Assembly: GCA_902519455.1 (NCBI GenBank)
Contig: CABYJT010000002.1
Location: 1 to 50,592, forward strand
Reading direction: 5' to 3'
From: an uncultured Pelagibacteraceae bacterium
Lineage (GTDB): Bacteria > Pseudomonadota > Alphaproteobacteria > Pelagibacterales > Pelagibacteraceae
Length of the DNA: 50,592 bases
The notes below the pieces were generated by a model. It did no database searches, was not told the DNA's origin, and saw only the letters and a program-made list of their open reading frames with translations. Made by a program: the position numbers and the translations under genes. Shown piece after piece: positions 9,194 through 50,592 of the stretch (positions are counted from its first letter, which is position 1; each line of letters begins with the position of its first letter).

Positions 9194-10501
9194 ATGTTGA
9201 ATATAAAAAGAATTTTTGAGACTATAGCTGATGCTGGACAAAAGATTTTAGAAAAAAAATCCTTTAAAAGCATTGCAAAAAAAAGAGATCTATTAGATCT
9301 TTGTGATGATCTATTGTCTACAAAAGGTGCAGCCTTTGGAATCACATTGGCAAGGGACATATTATTTAGATATCAAAATTTATCTACTGAAGAAAAAAAT
9401 AAATTTCTAATTGATGTTAACAAAAAGTATAAGCCAGATCCCTCTAAAATTGATGAGGCTATTAAGAAATACAGCGTTACTCAAGATGACTATTCAATTC
9501 TAAATTTATCAAAAGTAACCTCTGGCATAAGGAAGGAACTATTCGTAAGATTGAATATGGCTCCAAATGGAACTTCAGAAATTGTATCTTTAAGAGAAGA
9601 CTTGCTTAAGTTAATAATTGATAAACCTGAACTAAAAAGTTTAGATTATGACTTAATTGATATATTTAAAAATTGGTTTAACCCAGGTTTTTTAAAATTA
9701 AGAAAAATAACTTGGGACACAAAAGCTAATATTTTAGAAAAACTATTAAAATACGAGAAAGTTCATTCAATGAAAGATATGAATGAATTAAAAAGAAGAC
9801 TTGGAAAAGATAGAAGGTTCTTTGCATACTTTCATCCTGCTTTAGAAGATGAGCCTATTATATTTGTTGAAATAGCTTTGACCAAAGGATTAAGTCAATC
9901 TATACAAGAGTTAACAAGACCTTCAGATGAAAAAATAAAAAACTATGATACAGCAACTTTCTATTCAATAAGTAACTGCCAAGATGGTTTATCAAGAGTA
10001 ACCTTAGGAAATTTTTTAATTAAAAGAGTTGTTTATGAACTTCAAGAAGAACTTCCAGATATAAAATATTTTGGAACTTTGTCACCAATGATTGGCTTTG
10101 CTCATTGGTTTAAAAAAATGGACAGTTCTCAAGCATCAGAGATTTTGGGTGAAGCTAATAAAAATAGTTTAGATTTTTTAAAATCATCTGATTTAAAAAT
10201 AGGGGACAAAAGAATTGCTGATAATAAGCCTATGATAAGTAAACTTGCGGTAAATTATTTGGCAAAACAGAAAAATGATTTTGGGTTTCCAATTAATGAT
10301 GTTTGTAGATTTCATCTTAAAAACGGAGCTGATATCGATGATATTGCCATAAATGCAAACGTCTCAGAGGTAGGTTTTAAAAGGTCTTTTGGAGTAATGG
10401 TTAATTATAGATATGAATTGGCAAAAATTGAGAAAAATCACCAAGAATATGTAAACGAGAAGAAAGTTAATTTATCCAACAAAGTTAAAAAATATGTCTA
10501 A
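9194..10501 (+). CDS. Malonyl-CoA decarboxylase
   Basis: This enzyme converts malonyl-CoA to acetyl-CoA and CO2. The 435-residue protein has the MCD features: an N-terminal helical region, then FAYFHPALEDEPIIFVEIAL, FYSIS.CQ.GL..V.LG.FLIKRVV, the GTLSPM.GF..W segment, FHLKNGA with the catalytic-region His, and the C-terminal MVNYRY. Position right behind dctPQM and opposite a family III CoA-transferase suggests a route malonate (import), malonyl-CoA (CoA transfer), acetyl-CoA. That pathway is inference; the enzyme family is clear. No obvious ribosome-binding site precedes the ATG. The end overlaps dusA by 8 bases. Confidence 0.92.
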   Translation: MLNIKRIFETIADAGQKILEKKSFKSIAKKRDLLDLCDDLLSTKGAAFGITLARDILFRYQNLSTEEKNKFLIDVNKKYKPDPSKIDEAIKKYSVTQDDYSILNLSKVTSGIRKELFVRLNMAPNGTSEIVSLREDLLKLIIDKPELKSLDYDLIDIFKNWFNPGFLKLRKITWDTKANILEKLLKYEKVHSMKDMNELKRRLGKDRRFFAYFHPALEDEPIIFVEIALTKGLSQSIQELTRPSDEKIKNYDTATFYSISNCQDGLSRVTLGNFLIKRVVYELQEELPDIKYFGTLSPMIGFAHWFKKMDSSQASEILGEANKNSLDFLKSSDLKIGDKRIADNKPMISKLAVNYLAKQKNDFGFPINDVCRFHLKNGADIDDIAINANVSEVGFKRSFGVMVNYRYELAKIEKNHQEYVNEKKVNLSNKVKKYV

Positions 10502-11495
10502 GATTAATAGATTGGTGTCAGTTGCCCCTATGATGGATTGCACTGATAGGCACGAAAGATACTTTTTAAGATTGATAAGTAAACATGTACTTCTTTACAC
10601 AGAAATGGTTGTTTCCGAAGCAATTGATAGGGGAGATAAAGATAAACTATTATCGTTTGATTTAAAGGAAAAACCAGTTGCTTTACAATTAGGCGGCTCC
10701 ACGCCAAAATTATTATCAAATGCTGCTAAAATTGGTGAAGATTATGGTTATGATGAAATTAATTTAAACTTAGGCTGTCCAAGTAAAAAAGTTCAAAAAA
10801 ATAGATTTGGCGCATGTTTAATAAAAGAGCCAAATTTAGTGGGAGACTGTTTATTAGAAATGATGAATTCAACATCTTTGCCAGTCACAGTAAAGACTAG
10901 AATTGGTTATGATGACGTCGAAGACTACGAACATTTTTATAATTTCATTAAAACTTTAAAGGAAACGGGAGTTAAAACTTTTATAATACATGCAAGAAAA
11001 GCTATGTTGGGTAAATTTACACCTAAGCAAAACCTTAATATACCTCCTTTAAAATATGATTATGTGTATAGACTAAAGCAAGATTTCAATGATCTCGAAA
11101 TAATTATTAATGGTGGTGTCACTTCAGTTAAAGAAGTAAAAGATCATTTAGATAAAGTGGATGGAGCAATGATTGGAAGATCTGTTTATCATTCTCCTTA
11201 TCTTTTAGCTGATATTGAAAAAGAGATATTCAACAATCATGATATTAAAGAACGGGAAGAAATTGTTGAGGAGTTAATTGATTATGTTAAGGTTCAAGTA
11301 CAAATGGGTACGAGAGTAAATCAAGTTATGAGACATACACTAGGTTTATTCCATGGACAAACAGGTTCAAGCCATTGGAAAAGATATTTAAGTGAAAATA
11401 TGTGTGTAAGAGATGCGGATGTAAAAAAAATCGATCATATTATGGATAAAGTTAGACTTTCTCCTAAATTACATTCGGCAGGTCGAATTGATTAA
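10494..11495 (+). CDS. dusA: tRNA-dihydrouridine synthase A
   Basis: An FMN-dependent enzyme reducing uridine to dihydrouridine in the tRNA D-loop, with 333 residues as in other DusA proteins. Family signatures are VAPMMDCTDRH at the start of the TIM barrel, NLGCPSKKVQ with the following FGACL, in which Cys108 is the expected catalytic acid, VTVKTRIG, the FIIHARKA segment and GGV near the phosphate site. The C-terminal helical domain ends with HSAGRID. The ATG lies inside the end of the malonyl-CoA decarboxylase gene, and the end overlaps the next permease gene by 8 bases. The genes are probably cotranscribed without being functionally linked. Confidence 0.94.
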   Translation: MSKINRLVSVAPMMDCTDRHERYFLRLISKHVLLYTEMVVSEAIDRGDKDKLLSFDLKEKPVALQLGGSTPKLLSNAAKIGEDYGYDEINLNLGCPSKKVQKNRFGACLIKEPNLVGDCLLEMMNSTSLPVTVKTRIGYDDVEDYEHFYNFIKTLKETGVKTFIIHARKAMLGKFTPKQNLNIPPLKYDYVYRLKQDFNDLEIIINGGVTSVKEVKDHLDKVDGAMIGRSVYHSPYLLADIEKEIFNNHDIKEREEIVEELIDYVKVQVQMGTRVNQVMRHTLGLFHGQTGSSHWKRYLSENMCVRDADVKKIDHIMDKVRLSPKLHSAGRID

Positions 11496-12318
11496 TACTA
11501 TTCTTTCTAATCAGTATTATCTTTTAATTTTATTAATGATAATAACTGCATTTCCAGTTGGATTTTTTGCGGGTTATTTTGGCATAGGTGGAGGCCTAAT
11601 TTCTGTGCCGGTGCTTTTTTTTATTTTTGAAACAGCAGATGTCGATAAATCTTATTTGATGCATCTTTCAGTAGGAACAGCTTTTTCTATTACAATTTTT
11701 ACTGCTTTTGTTTCAGTTATGACTCATAGAAAACATAAAGCTGTAGATGTAAATATTCTAAAAACTTATGGTCTATTTGTTATATTTGGAGTTTTGCTTG
11801 GTACATACATGGCAGCATTATTAAATACAAAATCTTTAGTTTTATTTTTTGCTTTGGTTGTATATTTTTTTGGTGGATATTTATTATTAGTAAAACAAGA
11901 ATTAAAAAAGAATAAGAAATTTAAATTTCTTCCTAGAGCAACCTTTGGTTTCATTTCTGGTTTTATATCTGCACCTATGGGCATTACTGGAGCTATGATG
12001 AATGTTCCCATTCTAAGATATTTTGGATATCCTATTAGCAGAGCAATTGGAAGTTCAGCTGCAATTGGATTTATAATAGCATCTATTGGCTCAATTGGTT
12101 TTTTGACATCTGGTTTTTTACTAAATGCAAATCTTCCTTTAAGCGTAGGCTTTATAAATATCCCTGCTTTTTTAATATTTATTCCAATTACATCTTTTAT
12201 GGCTAGAATTGGAGCAAATATGGTTCACACCACAGATAAAAATAAAACTCAAAGAATGTTTGGGGTATTTTTATATGTAATAGGGACTCTGTTTTTGATT
12301 AGGTTCTTAGATCTTTAA
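11488..12318 (+). CDS. TSUP (TauE/SafE) family membrane permease
   Basis: A 276-residue inner-membrane protein with about eight hydrophobic segments. The TauE/SafE repeat signatures are visible twice: FAGYFGIGGGLISVP near residues 27-41 and FISGFISAPMGITGAMMNVP in the second half. The family exports or imports organosulfur anions such as sulfite, sulfoacetate or taurine-derived compounds; the substrate here is unknown. The TTG start at 11488 overlaps dusA by 8 bases. An ATG at 11536 is a later alternative that would trim part of the first helix. It ends one base before a convergent gene's stop. Confidence 0.87.
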   Translation: MINTILSNQYYLLILLMIITAFPVGFFAGYFGIGGGLISVPVLFFIFETADVDKSYLMHLSVGTAFSITIFTAFVSVMTHRKHKAVDVNILKTYGLFVIFGVLLGTYMAALLNTKSLVLFFALVVYFFGGYLLLVKQELKKNKKFKFLPRATFGFISGFISAPMGITGAMMNVPILRYFGYPISRAIGSSAAIGFIIASIGSIGFLTSGFLLNANLPLSVGFINIPAFLIFIPITSFMARIGANMVHTTDKNKTQRMFGVFLYVIGTLFLIRFLDL

Positions 12319-43924: not shown

Positions 43925-44314
43925 ATGATCGAACAAGTAAGTATTTATTTAACAGCAATGATCTTAGGAATTATGTTATTCTTTTCATTTGTTATTGCAC
44001 CAGTAGTATTTACTACTTTAGATGAAGATAATGCTAGAAAGTTTATTAGAAAAATATTTCCTTTTTACTATAATGTTAACTTAGGATTAAGTTTTATTGT
44101 TTTATTAATTTTTATATTCTTAAGTAAATTAGGAGTAGATTTCTACTTAATAATTGCAATTACACTTCTATTTGCTACTTCAAATTATTTATTAATGCCT
44201 TTAATTAATAAATATAGAGATGAAAAGCAGGATAAAAAATTTAAATATTCACACTTTATTTCTGTAGTGATTAATTTTATTCAGATGTTATTCTTAGTAG
44301 TTATGTTAATTTAA
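43925..44314 (+). CDS. DUF4149/TMEM205-like membrane protein
   Basis: A 129-residue protein with four hydrophobic segments (about 5-30, 52-70, 74-92 and 108-128). The MILGIMLFFSFVIAPVVFTTL pattern with the following RKIFPFYY is typical of DUF4149/TMEM205 proteins, whose function is unknown. Its stop overlaps the start of the hydratase gene by one base (TAATG). Confidence 0.75.
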   Translation: MIEQVSIYLTAMILGIMLFFSFVIAPVVFTTLDEDNARKFIRKIFPFYYNVNLGLSFIVLLIFIFLSKLGVDFYLIIAITLLFATSNYLLMPLINKYRDEKQDKKFKYSHFISVVINFIQMLFLVVMLI

Positions 44315-45096
44315 TGAACAACTTATCTACAAAAGAATTAGATTTATATTCAAATCAAATTCTTGAAGATTATGATGCAAAAAACCCCAGCCAAATTTTT
44401 AAAAATAAAGTAAAAATAAGTAACGAGGATGCTTTACATATTCAAAATAAAGTTACCGAATTAAGAGTATCAAGAGGTGAGGAAATCATTGGTTATAAAA
44501 TAGGGTGTATTTCAAAGGATACCCAAAAAAAAATGGATCTTTCCCACCCAGCAAAAGGCACGCTTTGGAAGCATGAATTACATCAAAACGGAGTTGAGCT
44601 TAATAGAAAGGATTATTCTAATCCTGCTATGGAAGCAGAATTCGGAGTAATACTTAATAGAGATATTAATCCTGATTTAGTATCATTTGATTACATATTA
44701 GAGTCTGTTCAATCAATTTATCCCTTAATAGAAATACATAATTTAGTTTTTAATGGAAATGCTCCAAATGGTGCAGAACTTTTAGCCAATAATGCAATTC
44801 ATGCTGGAGTTATTTTAGGACCAGAGAACAAAGTTCCAAACAGCAATAAAATCACAGATTTAAAACTAATCTATGACAATGAAGTAGTTGATAAATGGAT
44901 AGATAAAAAATGGCCTTTTGATATGCTTGGTGAAATAGAGTGGTTAGTAAGAGATAAAGAAAAAACAAAAAATATTTTGAAAAAAAATGATTTAATTTTA
45001 ACAGGAGCATATGGATTTCCTGTTCCTATTAATGAAAAGAAGTTGATCGAAGTTACCTCATCAGCTTTTGGAGATGTATCTTCAACATTTATTTAA
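44314..45096 (+). CDS. 2-keto-4-pentenoate hydratase-like (FAH superfamily) protein
   Basis: A 260-residue enzyme resembling MhpD/4-oxalocrotonate decarboxylase: IGYKIGCISKDTQKKM, the acidic metal site region MEAEFGVIL, PLIEIHN, ANNAIHAGVILGP and LKKNDLILTGAYGFPVP. Relatives hydrate or decarboxylate 2-oxo unsaturated acids in ring-cleavage and sugar-acid routes; the actual substrate is unclear. The adjoining beta-hydroxyacid dehydrogenase (18 bases downstream, with its own AAGGAGAG) suggests a joint catabolic step. Confidence 0.82.
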   Translation: MNNLSTKELDLYSNQILEDYDAKNPSQIFKNKVKISNEDALHIQNKVTELRVSRGEEIIGYKIGCISKDTQKKMDLSHPAKGTLWKHELHQNGVELNRKDYSNPAMEAEFGVILNRDINPDLVSFDYILESVQSIYPLIEIHNLVFNGNAPNGAELLANNAIHAGVILGPENKVPNSNKITDLKLIYDNEVVDKWIDKKWPFDMLGEIEWLVRDKEKTKNILKKNDLILTGAYGFPVPINEKKLIEVTSSAFGDVSSTFI

Positions 45097-45114
45097 ATTA
45101 CGAAAGGAGAGATC

Positions 45115-46119
45115 ATGAGCGATATCATAACAATAGGGGTGATTGGCTTAGGAAATGCTGGTACACCAATTTTAAATAATTTATACAAATCAAAGAAGTA
45201 TAACCTTGTAGCCTTTGATATTGATAAAAATAAACTCAATGATGTTCCAAAAGATATCAACAAAGCTAATTCTATCAAAAATCTTGCAGAAAAATGCAAG
45301 GCAGTTTTAACTTGTTTACCAAAACCAGAGCATGTTTTGCAAGTTGTTGATGGTGAGGATGGCTTATTACAAAATGCTACATCAGGAATGATATGGATAG
45401 ACACATCCACAACCGACTTTAAACAAACACAAAAATTAGCAGAAAAAGCAAAAAACTATGGTGTTTCAATGTTGGAAGCTACTCTAACTGGAGGTGTTCA
45501 TGCTTTACAAAATAATAATATGGTTTGCTTAGCTGGTGGAGATAAGGAAATTTTTAATAATTGGAAAGAAGTTTTGCAAGATGCAATTGGTGAAGTTGTT
45601 GTTCTTTGTGGAGATATAGGAGCAGGAGCTATTGCAAAAGTTGTTTCAAACATGCTTGCATTTACTAATATGGTTGCTGCATCTGAATGCATGATGATTG
45701 CTAAAAGAGCAGGATTAGATTTAGAAAATTTTTTTGATGCTATAAGAGTTTCAGCTGGAAATTCCTTCGCGTGGGAAACAGTTGTGCCTCATATCTTTAA
45801 TCAAAAATATGAAGCCGGATTTACAATGGATTTAGCATGCAAAGATATGAATTTAAGTTATTTACTTGGGAAACATTTAAATGTTCCACTAGACTTACAC
45901 ATGGAAGTTAAAAAAAAAATGGAAGAAGCTAGAGCTCAATATGGAGATAGTGAAGGCTGTTATGTATACCCTCGAACACTTGAGGACAAACTTGGTGAGC
46001 CATTATCATTAAAAGGTTGGGATAATTGGGGTTATGACATTAAAGTTGTTGATGGATCAATCGTTGTAAATCATAAAAACAGACCTAAATCTAAACATAC
46101 TCAACACAATTCTCAATAA
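45115..46119 (+). CDS. Beta-hydroxyacid dehydrogenase family oxidoreductase
   Basis: A 334-residue NAD(P)-binding dehydrogenase related to 3-hydroxyisobutyrate dehydrogenase. The Rossmann motif GVIGLGNAG (residues 8-16), LTGG at 124-127 in place of the usual SGG, and catalytic Lys175 (AIAKVVSNML) are visible. It is about 40 residues longer than the other copy at 2404 because of a C-terminal extension with many charged residues. Substrate unknown; the hydratase upstream suggests a sugar-acid or aromatic-derived hydroxyacid. AAGGAGAG precedes the ATG. Confidence 0.85.
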   Translation: MSDIITIGVIGLGNAGTPILNNLYKSKKYNLVAFDIDKNKLNDVPKDINKANSIKNLAEKCKAVLTCLPKPEHVLQVVDGEDGLLQNATSGMIWIDTSTTDFKQTQKLAEKAKNYGVSMLEATLTGGVHALQNNNMVCLAGGDKEIFNNWKEVLQDAIGEVVVLCGDIGAGAIAKVVSNMLAFTNMVAASECMMIAKRAGLDLENFFDAIRVSAGNSFAWETVVPHIFNQKYEAGFTMDLACKDMNLSYLLGKHLNVPLDLHMEVKKKMEEARAQYGDSEGCYVYPRTLEDKLGEPLSLKGWDNWGYDIKVVDGSIVVNHKNRPKSKHTQHNSQ

Positions 46120-46127
46120 AGTAAATA

Positions 46128-47012
46128 ATGGCTTATAAAATTTTACTTAAATGTATTTTTATTTTACCATCAATTCTATTGTTTATTAGCATATTTAATA
46201 TTTTTTTCCCTACAGATTATAGAAATGATAAATATTTAATAAATGGTTATTTCTCAAAAGAAAATATTAAAATTTTAAACTACATTTTAGAAGAAAAAAG
46301 AACTGAAATATTAAAATATGAAGATGCAATTAATAAATTTGACGAATTATTTTCAACTTATGGATACTCATTAAAGTTTTTAAATGAAGCTACAAAGGTC
46401 TATTTTACCGCTAAATCTCCAATGAAATATAGCTGGCAGAATAGATATGCAAAGGTTAAATTTCAAGAAAACTGGATACTTTTCTTAATTAGAAAGTTTG
46501 AAGAAGTCCAAATATTTTATACACAAAAAAGTAGGTATGGGGGTTCATATATTTTTTATCAATCATCAGATTATAAGTTTGCTTTAAAAAGAGGAATAAG
46601 CATATGCTCACAAGACGCAATTAGTTTCGCTAACTTATTAAAAAGAAGATACGATATTGATTATAACATTGTTGGTTTAGGTGAACATGTAGTAATGCAG
46701 GCAAAAATAAATAATAAATTTTATTTATCTGATCCAAATATGGGATTAACTTTTGATTTTAGTATTGAAGAATATTATGACAGTTACGAAAATAAAATAA
46801 AAATTAAAAACGCATATAACAGTATAGGTCGATCAGATATAATTAAGTCATACAGAAAAAATTCTTTTAGAAAATTTGAATATACTGGACCAAAGGCTTT
46901 GGATAGTACATATAACCCTGACAGTCTTACCTTCTATTCAAATTATCTAAAATGGTTACTTCCAATATTAATTTTATTTTTTGGAATTTTTTTAAGATTT
47001 AGAAGAAAATAG
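46128..47012 (+). CDS. Membrane-anchored transglutaminase-like protein
   Basis: A 294-residue protein with hydrophobic segments at both ends (about 8-25 and 272-288), suggesting a domain held at the membrane. In the middle, Cys160 (SICSQDAIS), His187 (GEHVVMQ) and Asp202 (YLSDPN) have the order and spacing of a transglutaminase-like Cys-His-Asp triad. Such proteins act as peptidases or amide-forming enzymes; the activity here is inferred from the triad only. It lies 9 bases after the dehydrogenase and before the second PhyH gene. Confidence 0.65.
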   Translation: MAYKILLKCIFILPSILLFISIFNIFFPTDYRNDKYLINGYFSKENIKILNYILEEKRTEILKYEDAINKFDELFSTYGYSLKFLNEATKVYFTAKSPMKYSWQNRYAKVKFQENWILFLIRKFEEVQIFYTQKSRYGGSYIFYQSSDYKFALKRGISICSQDAISFANLLKRRYDIDYNIVGLGEHVVMQAKINNKFYLSDPNMGLTFDFSIEEYYDSYENKIKIKNAYNSIGRSDIIKSYRKNSFRKFEYTGPKALDSTYNPDSLTFYSNYLKWLLPILILFFGIFLRFRRK

Positions 47013-47059
47013 CTTTCTATATCATTAAAAAAAATTATATAATAGGTCTTAATATTTTA

Positions 47060-47905
47060 ATGAAAAATTTAAATAATTTGTCAAACAAAGTAATCAATGA
47101 GATTTATAGGGATGGTTATTCTATTGTAAAAAATGTATTGAATAAAAAAAAATGTAACGACATAATTAAACATCTAGATAAACTTGAGGATAAGGAAGCT
47201 AATAATAAATACCATACCGATGAGAGATCAAAATTTGGTCAGGTTGTTATTAGAGATTTAGTATTAAGATCACCAAAACATTTTTTAAAATTGATTGATA
47301 ACAATCTTATAATCAAAGTATTAAATAAAGTATTTAAAGAACCATCTATTCTTGATAATTGTATGGCAAGCAAGACAACCAATGTAAATAAAAATTATTT
47401 TGGTTTAGTGCATATTGATTCTCATTTACCATCTTATTCTAATGAAAATACATCTGACATAGTTGCATGTTATTGTTTAGATGATTTTACAAAAGAAAAT
47501 GGAGCAACAAAAGTATGGCCCAAAAGTCATTTGTCAGGAATTCGTATACAAAATAGTAAAAATTATTCAAATCTAATCAAAAAAAAAAATAAATATGTCG
47601 AGGCAAAAAAAGGATCAATTATATTTTTTTTGGGTCAAACTTGGCACCAGATTGGAAAAAATATAAATAATCAAAGAAGATGGGGTATATTGTGTCATTA
47701 TAAAAGATGGTGGATTAAACCATCTACAGAGTGGACAAAATGTGGACCAAGTATTTATAAGTTATTAAATAATAAGCAGAAAGAATTGTTTGGTTTTAAT
47801 TCAATTTCCCCAGAATTTAATTTGAAGAAACAATATAAAAATTTAAAAACTCTTCGTAAATCATCTAAACTTAGTAAGAACTATTTTAAGGTTATACAAT
47901 ATTAG
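47060..47905 (+). CDS. Phytanoyl-CoA dioxygenase family protein, second copy
   Basis: A 281-residue Fe(II)/2-oxoglutarate oxygenase. The iron triad is His118-x-Asp120 (HIDSH) and His196 (TWHQIGKN), with Arg residues in QRRWGILCHYKRW for 2-oxoglutarate. ENGATKVWPKSHLSG is a typical PhyH sequence. It is divergent from the copy at 40319, indicating separate substrates. A TATAAT at 47038-47043 lies just upstream, although the matching -35 is poor. The protease gene starts 8 bases after its stop. Confidence 0.83.
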   Translation: MKNLNNLSNKVINEIYRDGYSIVKNVLNKKKCNDIIKHLDKLEDKEANNKYHTDERSKFGQVVIRDLVLRSPKHFLKLIDNNLIIKVLNKVFKEPSILDNCMASKTTNVNKNYFGLVHIDSHLPSYSNENTSDIVACYCLDDFTKENGATKVWPKSHLSGIRIQNSKNYSNLIKKKNKYVEAKKGSIIFFLGQTWHQIGKNINNQRRWGILCHYKRWWIKPSTEWTKCGPSIYKLLNNKQKELFGFNSISPEFNLKKQYKNLKTLRKSSKLSKNYFKVIQY

Positions 47906-47912
47906 ACTTAAA

Positions 47913-49913
47913 ATGATTAAAATAATTATTTATTTTACTCTTATATTATTTGTTAGCTTTGATGCTCAAGCATTAATAGGTAATAAAAAACATCAATCCT
48001 CTACAAACCATATTTATGTGAGTAACAAAGACTCTAAGGATGCTAATGTAAGATTTAATATAGCTAAAAGGCATTGTTCTAAATATAAAAAAAATACATT
48101 TCATTTTAAAAATGACTGGTATAAAGGAAATCCGCTTCCAACAGGTTTTAGAAAGAAAAATTTTCGATTTATTTGTGCGCTAAATTCCTCAGTAGCAAGA
48201 GAAATATTGTACGATTTTATAGCAAACAAAAAACCAAAAAAAAAATACAATAAAAAAATTGGCAAACAGAAATCTATAGTTCTTCAATTTTCCTCAAGAG
48301 ATTTTGAAACTAGAACTCCACAACAAATAGAAAAAGATAAAGCTGAAAAAAAAAGAATTGAAGAGGAAAAACGATTAGCTGAAATCAAAGCTAAAGAGGA
48401 AGCAGAAAAAAGAAGGCTTGCTGCAATTGCAGAAAAGAAAAGGAAAAAAATTGAAGCAGGTATCACAGATAACACAACACTTGTAAAAATTAAAAAAAAT
48501 ATTGATAAGTCAAATCTTTTTCCTGAAATTGATAATTTAAATGAGGTTAATCTTATTAGTCTTAATGATATCGACAGGAACAATTTTAACAATATTATAA
48601 ACAAAAATAATGAAGTATATTTCATAACCAAGGCTGATTATCTAGCTACATCAAATATAGTAAATCAAATTAAAAAAAAATCGCAGATGAAAGTTGGTGA
48701 AACATTGGTTCCAAATCCAGATTTATCAGGTTTAAAAACTGAAATTAATAATCTTGATAGGCAAAGAACAATTGCGTATCGCAAGCTAGAAGTTGCAGAT
48801 GCTCGTGTAAGTTATAATATTGGTGTAAACTGTGGTGCAGACTGGATATGCTTGGCAAATCAAGCAGCTGACATAAAAGTTTTAACAGATGCTCAAAAAT
48901 CAGTTAAAGCAATTAATATTAAACTAAATAATTTAATTGATAAATTGGCCAACACCCCAGCTGAAATAGCAAGACCAAGATATAAATCTTATGAGTATAT
49001 TGAACAAGATGTAGAAGCAAAAAAAGAGGCAATTTTTATAGTAATAAAATATTCAAATGGAAAGTTTCAAGAGACAGAAATAAACTTTTTTGAGACAAAA
49101 AAATTTAGAACATCAAGTGGAATAAATGCAAAAGACAAAAGTTATGAAAGATTAAAAAATAAATATGATGGCATAAATAAAATAAGTAACTGGCAAAATA
49201 TTAAATTTTCAAGCATTGGATATTTAGATCTTTTTAAAAAAATTAATAACCAAAGTAAATTTAAACTTGTTAGTAACAGGAATAAAATTATTCCAATACT
49301 TAAAGAAACAAAAATAGCAAAAATTAATGTAGAGGAATCTACTTTAGATTCATCAGATTTAGGTAAAACATCAAATGATAGTAGGTTTAATAGTGTAGTT
49401 GTAGTAAATACTAATGAAGGAATGGGTGCAGGTTTCTACGTGTCTTCTAATTTAATACTGACTAATTATCATGTGGTAGAAAATTCCTTAAATATTACGA
49501 TAGAGAATATTAATGGAAAAAAATCTTCAGCAAGGCTTATAAAAAAAGATTTATCTAAAGATTTGGCTCTCCTTAAAGTAAATAAAAGAGGCAAACCTGT
49601 AAGATTTTTTAATGGAAAACTTAATCAAGGAAGCGAGGTAGAAGCCTTAGGTCATCCAAGAGGACTTAAATTTTCACTTTCAAAAGGCACTGTCAGTGCA
49701 ATAAGAAAATATGCTAGTACTTATGACGCTTTAGGAACTCCCAATGTATTATTTATTCAGACAGATGCAGCTATTAACCCAGGTAACTCAGGGGGACCAT
49801 TATTCTATAAAAATAAAGTTGTAGGGGTAAACACTCAAGGATTATCTAAAAGTGAAAACGAGGGATTAAATTTTGCAGTTCATTATAATGAAGTTAAGAG
49901 GTTCTTAAAATAA
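47913..49913 (+). CDS. Secreted trypsin-like serine protease with coiled-coil region
   Basis: A 666-residue exported protein: signal peptide (about 1-20), a basic N-terminal domain, a long charged coiled coil (roughly 135-180, rich in E/K/A), a central region of unknown fold, and a C-terminal S1C-type protease. The triad is His520 (TNYHVVENS), Asp550 (KDLALLKV) and Ser626 (NPGNSGGPLF), like DegP/HtrA. No PDZ domain follows the protease; it ends 40 residues after Ser626. That is unusual for the HtrA family, and the N-terminal part has no name I can give. Probably periplasmic. Confidence 0.87.
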   Translation: MIKIIIYFTLILFVSFDAQALIGNKKHQSSTNHIYVSNKDSKDANVRFNIAKRHCSKYKKNTFHFKNDWYKGNPLPTGFRKKNFRFICALNSSVAREILYDFIANKKPKKKYNKKIGKQKSIVLQFSSRDFETRTPQQIEKDKAEKKRIEEEKRLAEIKAKEEAEKRRLAAIAEKKRKKIEAGITDNTTLVKIKKNIDKSNLFPEIDNLNEVNLISLNDIDRNNFNNIINKNNEVYFITKADYLATSNIVNQIKKKSQMKVGETLVPNPDLSGLKTEINNLDRQRTIAYRKLEVADARVSYNIGVNCGADWICLANQAADIKVLTDAQKSVKAINIKLNNLIDKLANTPAEIARPRYKSYEYIEQDVEAKKEAIFIVIKYSNGKFQETEINFFETKKFRTSSGINAKDKSYERLKNKYDGINKISNWQNIKFSSIGYLDLFKKINNQSKFKLVSNRNKIIPILKETKIAKINVEESTLDSSDLGKTSNDSRFNSVVVVNTNEGMGAGFYVSSNLILTNYHVVENSLNITIENINGKKSSARLIKKDLSKDLALLKVNKRGKPVRFFNGKLNQGSEVEALGHPRGLKFSLSKGTVSAIRKYASTYDALGTPNVLFIQTDAAINPGNSGGPLFYKNKVVGVNTQGLSKSENEGLNFAVHYNEVKRFLK

Positions 49914-49934
49914 TTTATAAGATTTTATAGGATA

Positions 49935-49954
49935 ACTAGACGTAGACTAGACGT
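49935..49954 (+). repeat. Tandem 9-base direct repeat
   Basis: ACTAGACGT occurs at 49935-49943 and again at 49946-49954 (11-base period) in the 185-base gap after the protease gene. The GC-containing repeat stands out in an otherwise AT-rich spacer. The rest of the gap 49914-50098 contains a weak AT hairpin at 49916-49929 and the tRNA-Leu fragment. The function is unknown. Confidence 0.55.
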
Positions 49955-50037
49955 TAGGGAGATAAAATAAAAAAAATTTACTTATTAGACTTGTTCAATT
50001 ATAAATATTGGCATAAACGCTCATGAAATTCATTAAT

Positions 50038-50077
50038 GCCCTCGTGGTGAAATTGGTAGACATAAAGGACTTAAAAT
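50038..50077 (+). pseudogene. 5' half of a tRNA-Leu(UAA), truncated
   Basis: From GCCCTCG at 50038 the sequence has the 5' acceptor strand, a tRNA-Leu-type D-arm (TGGTGAAATTGGTAGA) and an anticodon arm AAGGA-CTTAAAA-T, giving anticodon TAA. Instead of the matching TCCTT, the sequence after 50077 continues as an AT-rich run, and the rest of the anticodon stem, variable arm, T-arm and 3' acceptor are missing. It cannot fold as a tRNA. It lies 22 bases from the end of the next gene, so it is a remnant and not an active tRNA. Confidence 0.8.
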
Positions 50078-50098
50078 ATTTTTTTAGAAAAAGTTAAC

Positions 50099-50592
50099 TT
50101 ATTTATCTTTCACAGAAATTAATTCTGGATACTTATCAAATAAAATTTCAGCAGGTCTCTCTCCAGACCTTAATGGATCAATTAGCATTACTTGGCTAGG
50201 CATAATATTAGTTAAATTACAGTCTGTACCAAAGAGTTCAAAATAATTAAGTATATCTGAATACCATCTCACTTCAGCTTCCTTTGGTGAAGTAACTTCA
50301 AATGCAACTTTATTTTTACCAAAGTGTTCGATCACTCCAGTTAATACATCTGACTTACTATCATGAAGTTCAATTTCTTCATGATCAATAAGCATTGAAA
50401 ATGCGCCATATTCAAAAAAAGGTTCAGCACTTTCAACAATTTGTTTTAATGTTGCAGGAGTATTTTTTTTTGTTTTATCCCATCCACTTTCTGGATGATG
50501 TTCATAAATTATATTCATTCCATTTTTAATCGCATGATTGCACCAAGCTTTAATTTGATTTTCAGGGATGTCTCCAAATGTATTCATGAATT
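50099..50592 (-). CDS. Phosphosulfolactate synthase (ComA)-like protein, partial
   Basis: The C-terminal part of a protein resembling the ComA family, which adds sulfite to phosphoenolpyruvate. The visible 162 residues contain KNKVAFEVTSPKEA, FELFGTDCNLTNI and LRSGERP, corresponding to the KVIFEAP, FG..VNLANI and LRRG.R segments of ComA. An ATG at 50587 exists, but the frame continues to the window edge, and ComA is normally about 250-280 residues, so the N-terminal half is probably outside. The pathway here (for example sulfolactate metabolism) is uncertain. Confidence 0.6.
   Translation of the reverse strand, partial: FMNTFGDIPENQIKAWCNHAIKNGMNIIYEHHPESGWDKTKKNTPATLKQIVESAEPFFEYGAFSMLIDHEEIELHDSKSDVLTGVIEHFGKNKVAFEVTSPKEAEVRWYSDILNYFELFGTDCNLTNIMPSQVMLIDPLRSGERPAEILFDKYPELISVKDK

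Follow-up and report, generated by a model that had tools for sequence, protein, structure and literature searches.

Cassettes of integrons are short, contain one to a few genes in the same orientation and are stacked at one site, with the integrase encoded outside the cassette. Among the other systems closest to the one considered here, additive flexible genomic islands with repeats of tRNA fragments were described in Candidatus Actinomarinales (passages of PMC7771536) and, as fGI-2, in Candidatus Methylopumilus (passages of PMC10872708). The tycheposons of Prochlorococcus, as outlined in a passage of PMC10872708, are tRNA-bordered cargo islands of 4-200 kb with a tyrosine recombinase. Phage satellites include PICMI (PMC10803314, in part) and VEIME, named in passages of PMC10803314 and PMC10187409. 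In the Pelagibacterales, excerpts of PMC3861242 report the integration of pelagiphages at tRNA-Leu, and excerpts of PMC12416821 report tyrosine recombinases and tRNA genes beside the phn operon.

In this work, a comparative genomics approach was applied to a 50,592-nucleotide stretch of DNA of an uncultured Pelagibacteraceae (SAR11) bacterium, hereafter the window, which is an entire contig. The window carries a tRNA-Leu(UAA) 5' half, and the right contig end (50592) lies 515 bp past it. This half is probably an attachment site, located at the right-hand end of a small mobile cassette that has no integrase and belongs to a SAR11 cassette system. The arrays of such cassettes are similar to additive islands, as these are presented in the passages cited, in having gene cassettes at tRNA genes and direct repeats of a part of the tRNA. 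The repeat in SAR11 is the 5' half with a replacement promoter, whereas in Methylopumilus it is the last 20 nt of tRNA-Lys (passage of PMC10872708). The SAR11 cassettes also differ from additive islands in that their attachment arms are defined at both ends and an integrase-bearing relative was found; the passages of PMC7771536 and PMC10872708 name no integrase for the Actinomarinales and Methylopumilus cassettes. In contrast to tycheposons, 128 of the 133 distinct SAR11 units are 0.9-6.5 kb in size, and 130 are devoid of the integrase family. The autonomous element of the SAR11 system shares with PICMI and VEIME, as far as the cited parts describe them, an integrase, a DUF5906 primase, a small protein whose model is winged-helix-like, and forms that are apparently circular, but it integrates at the SAR11 tRNA-Leu and gave no AlpA match. 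Pelagiphage sites, according to the excerpts cited, involve the same tRNA-Leu 5' half, which lies beside the integrase gene in the HTVC105P record; the phage, however, has different flanks, a full phage genome and no cassette arrays. Similarly to integron cassettes, SAR11 cassettes are short same-orientation units at one site that have no integrase within, but their site is a tRNA half with iteron arms, and promoter-like sequence is present at most right ends. No account of the SAR11 arrays, the two-ended integrase-less cassettes or the word pair described below was found in the open-licence literature, subscription papers being mostly outside this scope (passages of PMC12324425, PMC3861242, PMC10872708, PMC10187409, PMC7771536, PMC7318151, PMC7542561, PMC10803314 and PMC12416821 included). 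Thus, the additive tRNA island is already known, and the integrase-less two-ended cassettes with unit-specific repeat words look new.

The features of the window are given below; G144 is a relative used for comparison.

45115-46119, + strand: left flank, 3-hydroxyisobutyrate-dehydrogenase-like gene, which adjoins the ComA-like gene in G144 (comparison with G144)
46162-50098, no strand: insert of 3.9 kb relative to G144, bounds approximate within about 40 bp
46128-47012, + strand: cassette gene 1, 294 aa, no Pfam family (Pfam scan)
47060-47905, + strand: cassette gene 2, 281 aa, PhyH dioxygenase family (Pfam scan)
47913-49913, + strand: cassette gene 3, 666 aa, C-terminal Trypsin_2 domain (Pfam scan)
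49916-50037, + strand: conserved module of the right end, preceding the half and made up of a P-arm-like region, the repeat pair and the promoter
49936-49953, + strand: paired 7-mer word CTAGACG/CTAGACG, 11 bp apart, copies at 49936-49942 and 49947-49953
49991-50019, + strand: putative tRNA promoter TTGTTC, 17 bp, TAAACG, 18 bp upstream of the half (from sequence)
50038-50077, + strand: tRNA-Leu(UAA) 5' half, nt 1-40, attachment-site core and cassette right end (39/40 identity)
50078-50098, no strand: right junction to non-attachment DNA, no AGTC-iteron arm (comparison with relatives)
50099-50592, - strand: right flank, ComA-like gene, incomplete at the end of the contig (comparison with G144)

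The half differs from nt 1-40 of the tRNA-Leu(UAA) genes of the same genus by a sole C-to-T mismatch at tRNA position 26. The initial annotation had recognised a tRNA-Leu(UAA) 5' half broken at the anticodon loop; the intact genes of relatives confirm the former, and the break indeed falls one base past the 7-nt loop CTTAAAA. A chance match is excluded, since a 62-base query built from the half gave E = 4e-27 to itself and about 1e-13 to the tRNA genes of relatives. Over the window, ARAGORN detected zero tRNAs, and thus no complete cloverleaf of a functional tRNA gene, the matching 3' half is absent, and Rfam at gathering thresholds gave no match; three weak snoRNA/miRNA matches that appeared at relaxed thresholds scored below gathering, and none of them was at the half. 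Neither an intact tRNA-Leu(UAA) nor the NAD-kinase gene that flanks it in relatives was found in the bacterium's own 52.7%-complete assembly (the NAD-kinase search had no positive control); since both are missing from such an assembly, the intact gene is probably unassembled.

The half is part of an attachment module of about 162 bp (49916-50077) that combines the repeat pair, the promoter and the 5' half, and is not an eroded tRNA. The portion at 49916-50037 is 92% identical over 122 bp (E 5e-47) to the module upstream of a relative's tRNA, and a similar module precedes many halves and intact tRNAs in other genomes. The 9-base repeat noticed earlier near the half is real, consisting of two copies of CTAGACG, and lies within the same conserved module. 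The host-type promoter string is present at 193 of 293 catalogued sites.

The change of gene content that had been claimed at the half was borne out by comparison with G144, where the half closes the right end of a 3.9-kb insert. Positions 44227-46161 (93%) and 50099-50592 (97%) of the window match adjoining stretches of locus L224 in this genome, and the equivalent spot there is a short gap between the dehydrogenase gene and the ComA-like gene. Because the flanks of the insert are neighbouring non-tRNA genes in G144, the window half is joined to non-tRNA DNA. The three-gene cassette, which has an intact right end and no left arm, is evidently off-site, between two genes that are neighbours in G144 and not at the tRNA. 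Integration at a secondary site or later recombination would explain this position; the former fits the right end, and the absent left arm does not fit it. In G144 a series of metabolic-looking genes occupies this neighbourhood, with a satellite next and tRNA-Leu beyond it. The series, in L224:1-16600 just upstream of the satellite, includes the hydratase-like, dehydrogenase and ComA-like genes that flank the window insert, together with transporter-like and aldolase-like genes (names assigned by eye), and is possibly a catabolic operon.

The cargo of the window cassette is rare. Cassette gene 1 has a single relative (58%) among 150 other genomes. The product of cassette gene 3, the stop codon of which is 2 bp ahead of the right-end module, has a protease family as its best PADLOC match and one near-full-length relative (41%), and the remaining matches among those listed cover essentially the protease domain.

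Halves of the same kind are common in relatives, where they are arranged in tandem, in the orientation of tRNA-Leu and on its 5' side, so that the tandem insertions are bounded by repeats of a part of the tRNA as in additive tRNA islands; the window itself has one half. A promoter-plus-half query, for which five candidates per genome were scored and matches include intact tRNAs, matched 111 of 151 same-genus genomes (a single match may be the intact tRNA) and at least two places in 56 of the 151. The loci scanned in GenBank were at most 8 kb long (at least 120 stretches), and fetched stretches were at most 19.5 kb, which leaves large units under-sampled. A first catalogue comprised 297 sites, of which 190 were halves, including near-repeats, viral-contig sites and one truncated intact tRNA; it is the basis of the word counts below. 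The cleaned catalogue of bacterial loci, from which these and 6 sites near sequence ends were removed, contains 264 distinct sites (86 intact tRNAs and 178 halves), those from related genomes not being independent. Of the 178 halves, 144 are followed by an arm that fits a strict pattern, with AGTC-type iterons spaced by about 10 bp, and the other 34 were read as 16 degenerate arms and 18 armless halves, the window half being among the latter. The arm pattern alone gave 35 matches in 30 of the 151 genomes, and its reversed control gave 0. A common armless half, decayed to variable degrees and adjoining the same minus-strand gene of 406 aa, was observed in L190, L066, L073, L055 and L065; it is best read as an old scar at several stages of erosion.

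The mode of insertion was derived from empty and occupied sites, for which sequences of 400 bp or more upstream of halves were compared with those upstream of intact tRNAs. In total, 44 distinct pairs were obtained from 19 half contexts and 14 intact contexts, with 81.8-100% identity upstream (at least 95% in 12 pairs). In each pair, a given cassette is continued by the remainder of the tRNA in one genome, whereas in the other genome different DNA comes next, in most cases the arm of another unit. For instance, one cassette with the CTAGACG word precedes an intact tRNA in L060, whereas in L033, L212, L153 and L053 it precedes an arm that differs in each of the four. All 44 pairs agree at no fewer than 37 of the 39 nt of the half and at only 6-14 of the 36 nt that come next. 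Exact insertion at the tRNA site, as in additive islands, was thus found in every distinct pair from relatives, the window unit being off-site. These pairs show, at the level of genome comparison, that the insertion point of cassettes is at about nt 39 of tRNA-Leu(UAA), ahead of the remainder of the gene, that the old 5' half is left on the left of the cassette, mostly followed by an AGTC-type iteron arm, that the right end of the cassette supplies the 5' half and promoter of the restored tRNA, and that repeated insertion leads to tandem arrays 5' of the tRNA. The earlier suggestion of a site-specific recombination junction in tRNA-Leu with crossover at the anticodon loop is supported, and the pairs diverge at the end of the half. 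In 95 arrays, mismatches in the 39-nt half increase with distance from the tRNA: their mean is 0.18 in the intact gene and 0.48, 0.75 and 3.33 at ranks 1, 2 and 3 (n = 95, 95, 16 and 3, the outer ranks being few, and one site each at ranks 0 and 1 having 15 mismatches, probably from a misplaced frame). This rise fits growth of the arrays at the tRNA end.

A search of viral contigs (IMG/VR) with the half plus arm identified three records. L092, L093 and the related L222 have terminal direct repeats of 99, 123 and 99 bp, respectively, as expected of circular DNA, and are therefore apparently circular. These satellite-like elements of 7.7-8.9 kb possess an integrase, a primase and the same tRNA half. 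The L092 integrase (545 aa) matches a PHROG integrase at E 4e-20 and Pfam at 4.9e-5, the latter below the curated cut-off; the element also encodes a primase-like protein (DUF5906) and a RusA-like protein. Relatives of all three proteins are encoded in L093 and L222, the primase-like protein of L222 being remote (24%). The combination of integrase and replication primase by which phage satellites are recognised was therefore found (matches to PHROG integrase and primases and to the Pfam families DUF5906 and AEP-TOTE). Among the columns that are invariant in six members of the integrase family are R373, K400, R485, H508 and Y518, which we take to be the tyrosine-recombinase catalytic residues. 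A structure model of the integrase was poor (pLDDT 69) and was discarded. When the integrase alignment was used for a broader search of viral sequences, a single further weak relative (22% identity) appeared. In viral contigs, an exact-pattern search for the promoter module had no match, and no circular integrase-less cassette was found. In the 13.8-kb viral contig L094, a ResIII/Mrr restriction-helicase-like gene (9405-12305) adjoins the satellite integrase.

In bacterial genomes, the integrase of L224, L225 and L227 lies in units bounded by the same tRNA-Leu halves. The arms of the satellites match cassette arms at 55/60 positions for L225, 50/60 for L224 and 45-46/60 for L222, L092 and L093, compared with 23-30/60 for best-of-182 random controls. 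The arm of L227, the integrase of which is more distant (31% identity), matches cassettes at the chance level of 28/60. This unit (L227:7189-17392) combines the distant integrase with GACCC-type arm repeats, seen by eye, and a different word, as if arm repeats followed the integrase clade. The satellite-like elements are the likely source of the integrase for cassettes: integration would be catalysed in trans by their tyrosine recombinase of about 545 aa, a proposal that builds on the same core and similar arms of these elements. Such supply in trans is made less secure by the presence of the family in only 6 of 399 genus genomes and by its absence from the profile search of the bacterium's own 52.7%-complete genome, which was run without a positive control.

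The 133 distinct units between successive sites have a median size of 2,243 bp and a range of 306-10,242 bp, units shorter than 300 bp having been dropped. Their ORFs of at least 60 aa, called mechanically and uncurated, amount to 89,557 aa on the tRNA strand versus 9,632 aa on the opposite strand. The integrase family is present in the three largest units (7.8, 8.8 and 10.2 kb), and 3/133 is not a population rate because large units are under-sampled and those with an integrase thereby under-counted (compare the 6 in 399 genomes). A profile of four members of the family recovered only these three known members among the unit ORFs of at least 60 aa, and a Pfam-A scan of 91 of the 110 de-replicated unit proteins gave 87 families, the 25 most frequent of which include no integrase family. 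The 300 ORFs of at least 90 aa, satellite genes included, fall into 195 clusters with 156 singletons. Trypsin_2 and Trypsin are the most frequent Pfam families, the former being present in 8 of the 91 proteins, and the 666-aa protein of the window has the same C-terminal Trypsin_2 domain. Caspase and ResIII domains occur in 3 proteins each, restriction-enzyme models match as well, and the cargo includes restriction-type and helicase genes.

The paired 7-mer word is another component of the right end. A strict word frame fitted 131 of the 297 sites of the first catalogue, in which related sites are not independent, and at 103 of these 131 the two copies are identical at 7/7 positions, with 40 distinct second words. 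The mean identity of the pair is 6.52/7 versus 4.25 after shuffling (maximum 4.52 over 1000 shuffles); a looser frame gave a perfect 7/7 pair at 139 of 289 sites versus 3 of 289 for shuffled sequences. The word thus differs between units, and its two copies within a unit mostly agree. Of the five distinct satellite words measured, four are also present at right ends elsewhere (CTAGAAA at 11, CCAGCAC at 4, CTAGTAA at 2 and CTAGGAT at 2), and the fifth, CTAGGGT, has no cassette partner among them. The words have a loose consensus in which the first base is always C and the fourth is mostly G, and therefore the sharing of words is weaker evidence than it would be for random 7-mers. In L203 and L032, the cassettes at the right ends are 99.7% identical over 770 bp and the words are CTCGGAA and CTCGGAC, with both copies changed, suggesting an exchange of the end module.

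Phage excision factors bind tandem sites. By analogy, we infer that the word pair may be the binding site of a unit-specific directionality factor, through which only matching units would be excised. A candidate factor is a 97-aa protein encoded about 0.6 kb after the L092 integrase gene, which was modelled as winged-helix-like (pLDDT 87.5). It has no Pfam match at E 0.1, and in a fold search against the PDB the best E value was 0.34 and a putative excisionase was fifth (E 1.2); as no fold match was significant, the protein can be called an excisionase only tentatively. For stacked elements with an identical core, the word pair offers a specific prediction of how they would escape joint excision.

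Four other explanations of the half were weighed. The initial annotation regarded it as a possible old integration scar that would fit imprecise loss of an element or a break by recombination; in the first alternative, a pelagiphage prophage integrated at tRNA-Leu was lost imprecisely. The tRNA-Leu 5' half does lie just past the integrase gene in HTVC105P, HTVC109P and MedDCM-OCT-S35-C6, and this part of the proposed pelagiphage link stands, the link being indirect. The flanks of the phage halves, compared by eye, nevertheless differ from those of the window scar and the arrays and have no host-type promoter, and the window flanks resemble the satellite-like integrase element and not the pelagiphage attP. 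The scar is also tied to the conserved 122-bp module found at many other halves. Instead of being a damaged tRNA left behind, the half is the element's own attachment copy with promoter and repeat pair, it closes a 3.9-kb insert, and 177 other distinct halves were catalogued in relatives. Ten proteins scanned at 40.3-50.6 kb contain neither a phage family, as a pelagiphage remnant would, nor a tyrosine recombinase, as a tycheposon would. Loss of a prophage is thus very unlikely. The half is missing beside the right-flank gene in all four relatives compared that have this gene, and hence it is not a fixed intergenic sequence. Still less likely is an amplification or assembly chimera that joined the half to unrelated DNA. 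The assembly is fragmented and half-complete, the contig ends 515 bp from the junction, and the junction of the half with the ComA flank occurs in this genome only, among the loci fetched; but in G144 the sequences on either side of the insert adjoin each other and are colinear, so an assembly join would need two matching chimeric joins. Least likely of all is a retained 5' tRNA half that functions as a small RNA or in a split tRNA: promoter-like sequence and 39/40 conservation would agree with it, but the window has no matching 3' half, and the mismatches accumulating with rank are as expected of remnants.

A larger share of probability, somewhat short of even, goes to rearrangement of an array, in which the half was at first a member of an ordinary tandem array, and the neighbour's arm was later lost, or the segment moved to its present place, by deletion or homologous recombination. 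The window unit is armless at either end, an armless decayed half adjoining another minus-strand gene recurs in several genomes, and the ComA-like gene is adjoined by different genes in G144, G004 and G163/G092, all of which favour such events. They do not readily account for a right junction at the crossover base, nor for the spacing between the TTAAA motif and the stop codon of the ComA-like gene, which by eye is about the same in G144 as in the window, at about 37-38 nt.

A question for SAR11 biology is how these small-genome bacteria, in which few prophages are known, acquire accessory and defence genes. Apparently, cassettes stack at tRNA-Leu after insertion by enzymes of virus-like satellites, which provides a slot for new genes in streamlined genomes. 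The slot may be a rotating defence locus, considering the trypsin-like and caspase-like proteases and the restriction-type and helicase genes of the cargo. This route of gene acquisition is testable, given that the slot is defined, an enzyme can be proposed, the two recombination sites are at hand and natural cassettes are numerous. More tentatively, and with chances well below even, one of the ocean's most abundant bacterial groups might possess an addressable integron-like system. In it, integrase-less cassettes with one tRNA-Leu core would be inserted by the recombinase of roaming satellites, a unit-specific word and a matching excision factor would choose which cassette leaves, and the promoter brought by each cassette would first serve the rebuilt tRNA and, after its displacement, drive transcription of the cassette that follows. 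Among the natural cassettes, the unit at position 3829 of L058 carries a run of prepilin-like genes, which belong to a cluster with 20 members across units.
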